In this document: positions 7,327 to 45,665 of the stretch, in pieces
Layout of the letters: every line of letters starts with the position of its first letter
Position numbering within the stretch: the stretch's first letter is position 1
Assembly: GCA_947304355.1 (NCBI GenBank)
Contig: CAMZAX010000016.1
Coordinates: forward strand, 1-51,670
Length of the DNA stretch: 51,670 nucleotides
DNA from: an uncultured Selenomonadales bacterium
GTDB lineage: Bacteria > Bacillota > Negativicutes > Selenomonadales > Selenomonadaceae
Reading direction: 5' to 3'
The notes under the pieces: model-generated
What the model saw: only the letters and a program-made list of their open reading frames with translations
Databases searched by the model: none
What the model was told of the DNA's origin: nothing
Position numbers and translations under genes: made by a program

Positions 7327-7376
7327 TGAAAAAAATCTCCATCCCCGTCACTCGCAGGTCAAGCGGCGATTGTCAA

Positions 7377-7526
7377 TCGGGCAATTCTCCCGGCTCCGAG
7401 TCAACGCTCTGCCGCGCCTTCCCAAGAAAAATTCCCAGTGACATGAATGCGGCTTCGCTCGTCGTTACGGTGACGTGATCGCTTCGGCTTTAAACCGAAT
7501 TCCTTATTGAGGCTCGCGCCACCCGA
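7377..7526 (-). promoter_or_regulatory. Cobalamin (B12) riboswitch
   Basis: Read on the minus strand, the segment shows the cobalamin aptamer landmarks in order: a GGAATTCGGTTTAAAGCCGA hairpin (consensus GGGAAtccGGTGaaAatCCGG), then AGCGATCACGTCACCGTAA (consensus AGCtGtcCCCGCaACTGTAA), GTCACTG (B12-box type), TTGGGAAGG-CGCGG, and the 3' element AGCCGGGAGAATTGCCCG (consensus AGtCaGGAgACCTGCC). The ends TCGGG and CCCGA pair to close it. It sits between a strong promoter and the permease pair. No clear terminator hairpin is visible in the expression platform, so the mode of control is unresolved. Confidence 0.85.
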
Positions 7527-7553
7527 TCCAATCCATATTCAATTTTCGCGCCA

Positions 7554-45280: not shown

Positions 45281-45313
45281 AAGTATAATTGCCGCGCAGA
45301 TTTTTCGCAAGCA
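45281..45313. repeat. 33-base direct repeat, left copy
   Basis: Matches 45633-45665 at 29 of 33 positions (core CGCGCAGATTTTT-x-GCAAGCA). The two copies enclose the small hydrophobic ORF unit, and each contains a minus-strand promoter. Confidence 0.75.
45282..45310 (-). promoter_or_regulatory. Promoter of the SbmA-like transporter
   Basis: Minus strand TTGCGA (45310-45305), 17 bases, TATACT (45287-45282). It lies within the left copy of a 33-base direct repeat; the right copy contains a matching promoter at 45634-45662. Confidence 0.65.
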
Positions 45314-45335
45314 TGTAAAAAAAATGAACGCCGCC

Positions 45336-45364
45336 TTGAAATCAGACGACGTATAGTTTATAAT
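45336..45364 (+). promoter_or_regulatory. Promoter of the small hydrophobic peptide gene
   Basis: TTGAAA (45336-45341), 17 bases, consensus TATAAT (45359-45364). The predicted start near 45371 places the stem GCTTG-ATGC-CAAGC (45372-45385) at the very 5' end of the mRNA. Confidence 0.7.
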
Positions 45365-45416
45365 CGCTCTTGCTTGATGCCAAGCGGCAAAAGGCGGTTT
45401 AAATCAAAAAAAGAAG

Positions 45417-45431
45417 CCCCCGGAAAGGGGG
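45417..45431 (+). promoter_or_regulatory. Hairpin occluding the peptide ribosome-binding site
   Basis: CCCCC-GGAAA-GGGGG. The 3' arm GGGGG is the Shine-Dalgarno sequence for the ATG at 45440 (8-base spacing), so the folded mRNA would hide it. On the other strand the same hairpin plus a T-run forms a terminator. Confidence 0.65.
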
Positions 45432-45439
45432 TGCATCGA

Positions 45440-45514
45440 ATGTTCACGATTATCTTCAGAATCATCGTAATCACGTTGATAATCCTCTGGATATTCTCAG
45501 GAACAGCCGCCTAA
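45440..45514 (+). CDS. 24-residue hydrophobic peptide, type I toxin-like
   Basis: A single predicted membrane helix (MFTIIFRIIVITLII then LWIFSGTAA), with one Arg at position 7. It resembles in size and character the toxins of type I toxin-antitoxin loci (Ibs- or TisB-like), without claimed homology. It has its own consensus promoter, a 5' end hairpin, a sequestered ribosome-binding site and a convergent antisense promoter, and lies between 33-base direct repeats. A longer in-frame reading from 45263 runs through promoter sequence and was rejected. Confidence 0.6.
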   Translation: MFTIIFRIIVITLIILWIFSGTAA

Positions 45515-45593
45515 GCTTCCCGGCGAATAGCGGCTTACCTTTTTTCGTAGCTCACCTATAGACGAGGGGCTGAACCGCCTTCAAGCAATCGTA

Positions 45594-45624
45594 GCCTCGC
45601 AAATTTCGCGGGGCATTTTTCTTT
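45594..45624 (+). terminator. Plus-strand terminator of the peptide transcript
   Basis: GCCTCGC-AAATTTC-GCGGGGC pairs fully with one U-G pair and is followed by ATTTTTCTTT. On the minus strand the same stem has a C-A mismatch, so it acts mainly on the plus strand. A weaker stem with TTTTTT at about 45512-45545 could end a shorter transcript. Confidence 0.65.
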
Positions 45625-45632
45625 GCCGAAGA

Positions 45633-45665
45633 AATTATAATCGACGCGCAGATTTTTTGCAAGCA
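45633..45665. repeat. 33-base direct repeat, right copy
   Basis: Partner of 45281-45313, offset by 352 bases, 29 of 33 identical. Confidence 0.75.
45634..45662 (-). promoter_or_regulatory. Antisense promoter facing the peptide gene
   Basis: Minus strand TTGCAA (45662-45657), 17 bases, consensus TATAAT (45639-45634). It lies just past the mnmA stop and within the right direct repeat. Confidence 0.65.

Follow-up and report, generated by a model that had tools for sequence, protein, structure and literature searches.

A putative type I toxin-antitoxin family with its own hydrophobic peptide in a genus of the Selenomonadaceae

Introduction

Among the type I toxin-antitoxin systems described so far, bsrG/SR4 and txpA/RatA of Bacillus subtilis are the closest to the unit reported here. 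SR4 pairs with the overlapping 3′ end of bsrG (PMC8309996) and induces a structural change around the bsrG ribosome-binding site (RBS), by which the RBS is obscured (PMC5848175), and txpA has an unusually long match between its Shine-Dalgarno (SD) sequence and 16S rRNA (PMC8167048); these statements are taken from excerpts of the three papers. In hok/Sok and aapA/IsoA, long-distance pairing between the 5′ and 3′ parts of the mRNA is combined with hairpins that mask the SD, according to an excerpt of PMC6733600, and the present unit resembles them in both respects. The 3′ end of aapA3 masks the SD itself (same excerpt, PMC6733600), whereas the 3′ G-box of the present unit matches the anti-SD and not the SD. 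As far as the excerpted descriptions go, bsrG/SR4 and txpA/RatA show the arrangement predicted for the unit, a convergent, cis-encoded antisense RNA directed at the 3′ end of the toxin mRNA; the predicted peptide, with 24 amino acids, is shorter than BsrG (38) and TxpA (59) and has no match to PF16935. Unlike in these two systems, again compared by description, the stem of the putative antisense hairpin lies partly inside the open reading frame (ORF).

Short hydrophobic peptides with an RNA antitoxin are also encoded by ibs/Sib, ldr/Rdl and zor/Orz of Escherichia coli, of which the antisense and leader architecture is unlike that of the present unit. An SD sequence in a hairpin, a dedicated antisense promoter and tandem multiplication form the usual signature of type I toxins. 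Tandem duplication of zor-like genes and masking of the zorO RBS by a 5′-UTR structure are mentioned in the excerpt of PMC8309996. Before a cyanobacterial case in 2025, type I systems had been described only in Proteobacteria, Firmicutes and Tenericutes, as stated in an excerpt of PMC12390103. In the literature on type I toxin-antitoxin systems and holin-like toxins, as far as it was searched (excerpts of PMC10903887 included), nothing was recognised on this class (Negativicutes) or on the family described below.

The unit had been put forward in an original prediction as a new type I toxin-antitoxin module. With a probability of roughly 0.8, it is a cis-encoded type I system of the convergent bsrG/SR4 and txpA/RatA kind that carries a toxin peptide family of its own.

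The unit and its surroundings

The window, a stretch of 51,670 nt from an uncultured Selenomonadales bacterium (contig CAMZAX010000016.1), contains the unit at 45281-45665 (Table 1). When the letters were rechecked, the features listed in the original prediction were all in their places: a plus-strand promoter at 45336, a 5′ hairpin, which is also present in the predicted mRNA fold, an SD hairpin, the ORF at 45440, a plus-strand terminator at 45594 and a minus-strand promoter at 45634. The SD approximates the full-length complement of what we take to be the tail of 16S rRNA (GAAAGGGGGTG). Seven promoter-like and four terminator-like sites were counted between 45100 and 45900, versus 0.9 and 1.4 in shuffled sequences.

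Table 1 Features of the unit in window coordinates
Feature	Position	Strand	Basis or remark
Left direct-repeat copy	45281..45313	-	Promoter-like TTGCGA-17-TATACT, upstream of SbmA-like ABC transporter gene
Sense (toxin mRNA) promoter TTGAAA-17-TATAAT, 11/12	45336..45364	+	Consensus score
H1 5′ strand TGCTTG, near inferred mRNA 5′ end	45371..45376	+	Pairs with 45582-45587
H2 5′ strand GGCGGTTT	45393..45400	+	Pairs with 45572-45579
Hairpin CCCCCTTTCCGGGGG + CTTCTTTTTTT	45406..45431	-	Candidate antisense terminator in window copy; mirror of H3
C-box AGCCCCC	45415..45421	+	Left arm of SD hairpin H3 (with 45427-45431); alternative partner of 3′ G-box (H6)
Shine-Dalgarno GGAAAGGGGGTG	45422..45433	+	G run inside hairpin H3
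24-codon hydrophobic toxin-like ORF MFTIIFRIIVITLIILWIFSGTAA	45440..45514	+	Translation, family conservation
H4, AGCCGC (45505-45510) / GCGGCT (45530-45535)	45505..45535	-	Stem kept in putative antisense RNA; candidate first antisense terminator
3′ G-box GGGGCT	45566..45571	+	Can pair with leader C-box (H6)
3′ box	45572..45587	+	H2 3′ strand 45572-45579, H1 3′ strand 45582-45587
Sense intrinsic terminator H5 and T tract	45594..45621	+	Stem 45594-45614
Right direct-repeat copy = antisense promoter element	45633..45665	-	Repeat comparison
Antisense (antitoxin RNA) promoter TTGCAA-17-TATAAT, 10/12	45662-45634	-	Start inferred near 45627

At gathering scores, Rfam searches recovered only a cobalamin riboswitch in the window (7363-7541, minus strand, 87 bits). 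In relaxed Rfam searches of 9 and 14 loci, all matches stayed below gathering scores apart from a RAGATH-18 RNA of 61.6 bits located inside a disrupted unit (L034:10450-10522); RAGATH-18 is reported as a guide RNA of IS607 TnpB (PMC11061315).

The neighbours of the unit encode MnmA (PF03054 and other matches) and an ABC transporter whose membrane domain resembles that of SbmA/BacA (PF06472, PF05992, PF00005). As originally claimed, two direct repeats of 33 nt, spaced 352 nt apart and 88 % identical, bracket the unit. Such repeats, together with a copy number that varies between species at one place, could mark a mobile insertion with a duplicated target site. This explanation deserves hardly any credence: there is a promoter-like site in the repeat copy on either side, the repeat forms the junction of tandem units in relatives and is common to adjoining units, and the element is too small for a transposase. 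Moreover, at E ≤ 0.01 neither plasmid nor phage records matched the window unit, and the exact 3′-box pattern had no match in viral contigs.

The gene mnmA was located in 58 of the 66 genomes of the window genus, and 30 of these places were fetched for a comparison of the interval. An SbmA-like gene adjoins mnmA in seven of the 30. The presence of the unit between these genes, which had been proposed as a check, came out as one to three units in six places and a relic in L189: the interval holds one unit in L179 and in L183, two in L188 and in L207, one unit and relics in L206, three units and one 3′ block in L182, and only a decayed unit, not a clean empty site, in L189. At the other 23 places, of which at least four are on stretches that end at contig ends, the fetched stretch showed no SbmA-like gene and, except for a relic in L195, no match to R1, a sequence model of the 3′ block. 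A promoter-like TTGAAA-17-TATACT stands before the SbmA-like gene in L206 and in L189; agreement with the left repeat of the window extends to 27 of 33 letters in L206 and to 21 of 33, a weak likeness, in L189. Neither repeat has the look of a mark left by insertion, and the left one is better taken as a promoter positioned to serve the SbmA-like gene. The differences in copy number at this place are best explained by tandem duplication and loss, not by insertion.

The ORF and its peptide

The units found with blastn, 73 in number, were filtered for hydrophobic ORFs of 23-30 codons in the expected position; 68 passed, and 66 of these 68 ORFs start with ATG. After exclusion of L070, which looks chimeric, 67 ORFs were left for the codon table. 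Over the core of the 66 distinct ones, mean column entropies at codon positions 1, 2 and 3 were 0.98, 0.56 and 1.48 bits. Position 2 is thus the most conserved and position 3 the least, as expected for a hydrophobic peptide under selection, which argues that the ORF is a gene. Hydrophobic exchanges among the filtered ORFs are conservative, and the consensus of 15 chosen members reads xxxxKIIxRVxxxTGIILLxLSKTAA. The last codons (T-A-A) vary little at any codon position, which may be because of the H4 stem; where the stem changes together with its partner the residues change too, to T-V-S in L063/L064 and to T-A-T in L025 (few members, compared by eye). By these comparisons the unit appears to possess the short, hydrophobic, toxin-like ORF under coding selection that is expected of a type I system.

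Drift of the ORF amid conserved DNA, named beforehand as an observation that would count against the original prediction, was not seen for the family as a whole, and a minority of units have lost the ORF. A rough ORF filter was failed by 24 of 141 distinct units. At least two of these (L137:1527 and L130:1469) nevertheless contain an ORF, and L136 is likely to be a chance match; part of the family therefore persists without the toxin ORF. Promoters or boxes are kept, and the usual toxin ORF is lost, in L048:1278-1676, L049:1252-1652, L070:304-720, L027:1441-1830, L022:1063-1501 and L189:2540-2690. Four of these loci (L048, L049, L070 and L189) have in common an inserted-looking motif, GGTCGCTTT(A/G)AAAGCGACG.

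Units of this sort, some of which retain promoter, H4, 3′ box and antisense promoter, might suggest that the whole family is a structured non-coding RNA or a repeat element with an incidental ORF, and the 3′ block alone is indeed duplicated in several arrays. The codon-position pattern, the near-constant ATG and the conservative hydrophobic exchanges speak against this explanation, which is very improbable.

Searches of Pfam, NCBIfam and PHROGs with peptides of the family and of intermediates detected by R1 yielded no match above the curated cut-off of any model that has one. The best match was to NF043072, a signalling-peptide model (E 0.0037; 16.7 bits versus a cut-off of 44), and none of the tested peptides matched any type I toxin family of Pfam at E ≤ 10. 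The ORF could instead encode a small peptide of the membrane that acts in regulation or stress, is non-toxic at natural levels and is tuned by the antisense RNA. The same sequence evidence fits this reading, toxicity cannot be read from a sequence, and the lack of Pfam or NCBIfam matches over curated cut-offs agrees with it. The buried SD, the dedicated antisense promoter and the tandem copies point to a type I toxin instead, as does a layout shared with the loci of PF16935 holin-like toxins (see below), and the non-toxic alternative is considered unlikely.

Conserved RNA helices and the strands on which they form

The predicted mRNA of the window unit folds better than all of 200 shuffled sequences (z -3.9); the fold of the antisense RNA is unremarkable (z -1.15, with 29 of 200 shuffles as good). 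In the mRNA the leader pairs with the 3′ region through H1 and H2. Conservation of the helices was examined in an alignment, A1, of 65 of the 73 units, from which L050 (frameshifted), L008 (truncated), one unit of L038 and five units that lack the ORF or are chimeric were excluded. Taken jointly, H1-H5 are paired in 93.5 % of the alignment cells, and pairing falls to 39-51 % when the partners are slid along the alignment. Changes on both sides of a pair were counted in 78 cells versus 19.6 in shuffles, a value reached by none of 500 shuffles in this test, which ignores relatedness. H1 is paired in 94.4 % of cells, with two pairs changed on both sides, and H2 in 96.3 %, with four such pairs; the covariation check proposed for the unit was thus borne out for the leader/3′ helices. 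H3 is paired in 97.8 % of cells, yet none of its pairs changes on both sides; the SD hairpin is thus kept without being proven by covariation. H6, the pairing of the C-box with the 3′ G-box, scored 16.4 with own partners versus 15.0 with shuffled partners (0 of 1000 shuffles reached the former), and three of its six pairs have changes on both sides. For a structure containing H6 the number of cells changed on both sides is 90, versus 23.8 in shuffles. H3 and H6 are mutually exclusive, the C-box being common to both. A pairing of a leader GGCGG box with the ORF end was also considered and was dropped on inspection by eye; the leader/3′ pairing persists in L063/L064 despite a changed ORF end.

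A G.U pair in one RNA is an A.C mismatch in its complement, and wobbles therefore reveal on which strand a helix is formed. In terms of the mRNA sense, G.U and A.C cells number 36 versus 6 in H2, 13 versus 3 in H3 and 54 versus 1 in H5, which favours the mRNA. In H4, 9 sense-only wobbles are opposed by 94 antisense-only ones, which favours the antisense RNA; the cells of H1 are even (10 versus 11). H4 is paired in 93.7 % of cells on the antisense strand versus 77.3 % on the sense strand. Parsimony counts on a tree built without the helix columns gave 23 sense versus 11 antisense changes for H2, 13 versus 3 for H3, 38 versus 17 for H5 and 12 versus 58 for H4, and did not discriminate between strands for H1 (9 versus 11) and H6 (15 versus 18). 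The bias in H4 could come partly from coding constraint on its left arm. At one central position of its right arm, however, only two letters occur in the 65 units, G (36 units) and A (29).

The antisense RNA and its 3′ end

Past the terminator an antisense promoter matching at least 10 of 12 consensus positions is present in 113 of 137 units versus 1.5 % of letter shuffles; for the sense promoter, at the same threshold, the figures are 102 of 137 and 2.2 %. The conserved antisense promoter and the antisense-strand wobbles of H4 together form the best evidence that the antisense RNA exists. The family thus seems to have an antisense RNA gene that overlaps the toxin mRNA, as required of a type I toxin-antitoxin system.

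The antisense transcript had been predicted to end at the very hairpin that hides the RBS. In the window copy this fits: on the minus strand, where the SD hairpin has its mirror, a terminator-like hairpin at 45431-45417 precedes CTTCTTTTTT, and the tract behind the mirror hairpin reads CTTCTTTTTTT. It does not extend to the whole family, as the A-rich tract at the SD hairpin that would give an antisense U-tract occurs in 28 of the 89 units (out of 137) in which a C-box was found by a rough pattern. H4′, at the end of the ORF, is a more general candidate for the antisense terminator than the mirror of the SD hairpin. It is followed by GTTTT in 31 of 65 units and by weaker letters in the others; the window copy is among 14 with GTTCC. 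Just past the stop codon, the Hol_Tox loci discussed below have a terminator on the minus strand in 9 of 17 cases, versus 1 of 17 on the plus strand. The two antisense U-tracts are weakly anticorrelated (rho -0.28, p 0.022; group test p 0.054), a result that is not relied on.

Distribution of the family

A single further copy, divergent (67 % identity) and on another contig, was found in the genome from which the window comes. DNA searches gave matches in 28 of 99 genomes, the own genome included; all 28 are of the window genus, which accounts for 60 of the 99, and no match was found in the 30 other genera sampled. With R1, matches were obtained in 53 of the 66 genomes of the window genus (own included), with up to 14 matches per genome at E ≤ 0.01, so the proposed homolog search revealed a family in this genus. 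Across the class, R1 matched 24 of 300 sampled genomes: 18 belong to the window genus and six do not, and one of these six (L136) looks like a chance match. The exact 3′-box pattern occurred in 26 stretches of named genomes, all of them Selenomonadales/Selenomonadaceae metagenome-assembled genomes and many from ruminants.

Tandem arrays are present in several genomes, e.g., L034, L044, L071, L033 and L072. Three tandem units lie at L137:1063-1869 (genome G057), one of them without the stretch that includes the SD. A second copy of the 3′ block alone directly follows a complete unit at L016:817-940, L013:1815-1955 and 2346-2479, L011:1984-1865, L015:1811-1918, L038:720-829 and L158:1114-1229. 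These lone copies apparently have no promoter or ORF of their own and would be transcribable only as antisense. In L134 and L135, from a different family of the class, a similar 3′ block accompanies another peptide, MNVIELLTVIGYTVTIFSFGYALGRERRYKNK.

Relation to holin-like toxin loci

Hol_Tox (PF16935) is present in 67 of the 200 class genomes sampled, spread over 28 of 81 genera. Over the cut-off it was detected in one of the 66 genomes of the window genus (three at E ≤ 0.001), as opposed to the 53 with R1 matches. Hol_Tox loci from the class and from viral contigs follow the same order as the window unit: sense promoter, leader box, SD hairpin, ORF, stem after the stop codon, leader-pairing 3′ box and antisense promoter. 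This layout was examined in 17 of 30 fetched loci, namely those in which the filter found an ORF. In the 17, leader/3′ pairing scored a mean of 31.1 versus 20.8 with shuffled partners (maximum of 200 shuffles, 24.5), the SD hairpin is present, and an antisense promoter of at least 9/12 was seen in 16, a figure that has no shuffle control. By its sequence features, the RNA layout of the unit appears to be of the bsrG/SR4 and txpA/RatA (Hol_Tox) kind. For the peptides, a Pfam search and a profile comparison yielded no PF16935 match, and the two profiles are unrelated (hhalign probability 0.2 %). The word "new" in the original prediction accordingly holds for the peptide, which has no relation to PF16935, and not for the RNA layout.

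Matches of R1 extend to L130 and L132-L135, with E values from 1.1e-6 to 6e-4 (best value in shuffles, 1.1). It did not match any PF16935 Hol_Tox locus directly, so that the case for common descent of the RNA rests on intermediates. The 16-nt 3′ box of the distant members L132 and L133 matches nine viral contigs, of which four have the layout (L171, L172, L174 and L175, one cut by the locus end) and five carry unrelated genes. L132/L133 have the 16-nt 3′ box and leader letters in common with the Hol_Tox contigs L174/L175. Of three peptides from viral contigs, two match PF16935 (44.5 and 37.0 bits; cut-off 23.3) and one does not. Among three further phage loci with Hol_Tox-like peptides, leader/3′ pairing is clear in L240 and low in L239 and L241; L241 has a 12/12 antisense promoter, and its low score is perhaps due to a misplaced start codon. 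Common descent of the RNA of the window family and that of Hol_Tox is plausible on these comparisons.

A wider and tentative proposal, less likely than not, is that the class has preserved a single regulatory RNA chassis, with leader box, SD hairpin, 3′ box and the promoter and hairpin of the antisense RNA, and has swapped the toxin that it carries. Hol_Tox would then be its cargo in many genera, another peptide in the window genus and further peptides in the intermediates, with arrays in the window genus and some units in which the RNA was kept and the toxin lost.

Proposed mechanism and folding tests

From the conserved ORF, the two promoter sites and the helices, which the aligned sequences display, we infer two transcripts, a switch between H3 and H6, toxicity of the peptide, its silencing and an RNase III step. 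The plus-strand promoter would give an mRNA of about 250 nt for a single-span membrane peptide, of 24-28 amino acids in most units, and the minus-strand promoter, just past the mRNA terminator, an antisense RNA covering the 3′ part of this mRNA. The antisense RNA may stop at H4′ or, in the window copy, continue as far as the U-tract that follows the SD hairpin. While the mRNA is nascent, the C-box would hold the SD in H3 and early translation would be blocked. Once the 3′ region had been made, the leader would pair with it through H1 and H2, and the C-box could exchange the SD for the 3′ G-box (H6). Binding of the antisense RNA to the 3′ region would remove these partners, favour H3 and create a duplex for RNase III. 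Without antisense RNA, the peptide would be made and should harm the membrane or envelope. As the 3′ G-box matches the anti-SD, long-range pairing would free the SD rather than hide it; a second 3′ anti-SD was not seen by eye.

In folding calculations the probability of H2 exceeded 0.5 in 59 of 65 units, and that of H3, after removal of the 3′ end, in 63 of 65. With the 3′ end present, H3 was more probable than H6 in 48 units and H6 more than H3 in 17. When either state was forced, the median difference was 1.4 kcal/mol in favour of H3, and the states lay within 3 kcal/mol of each other in 39 of 65 units. Blocking the 3′ part gave a median probability of H3 of 0.96, with values above 0.8 in 45 of 65 units. 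Forcing H6 raised the median accessibility of the SD from 0.29 to 0.37 and left it unchanged in the window unit, where blocking of the 3′ part did not lower it either (0.32 free, 0.33 blocked; probability of H3, 0.69). The folding energies do not confirm a switch, which is therefore a hypothesis drawn from covariation.

Conclusions

A type I toxin-antitoxin system, as originally proposed, is the reading that best accommodates the coding ORF, the antisense promoter and the covarying helices. The family would add a peptide family to the type I toxins, in a class for which no report was found in the literature consulted, and it provides comparative evidence on the strand on which several RNA helices form. 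It sets up a test of whether RNA control of the bsrG kind is separable from the toxin that it controls. The units lying side by side in several genomes offer a natural setting in which the specificity of neighbouring antisense RNAs may be studied.
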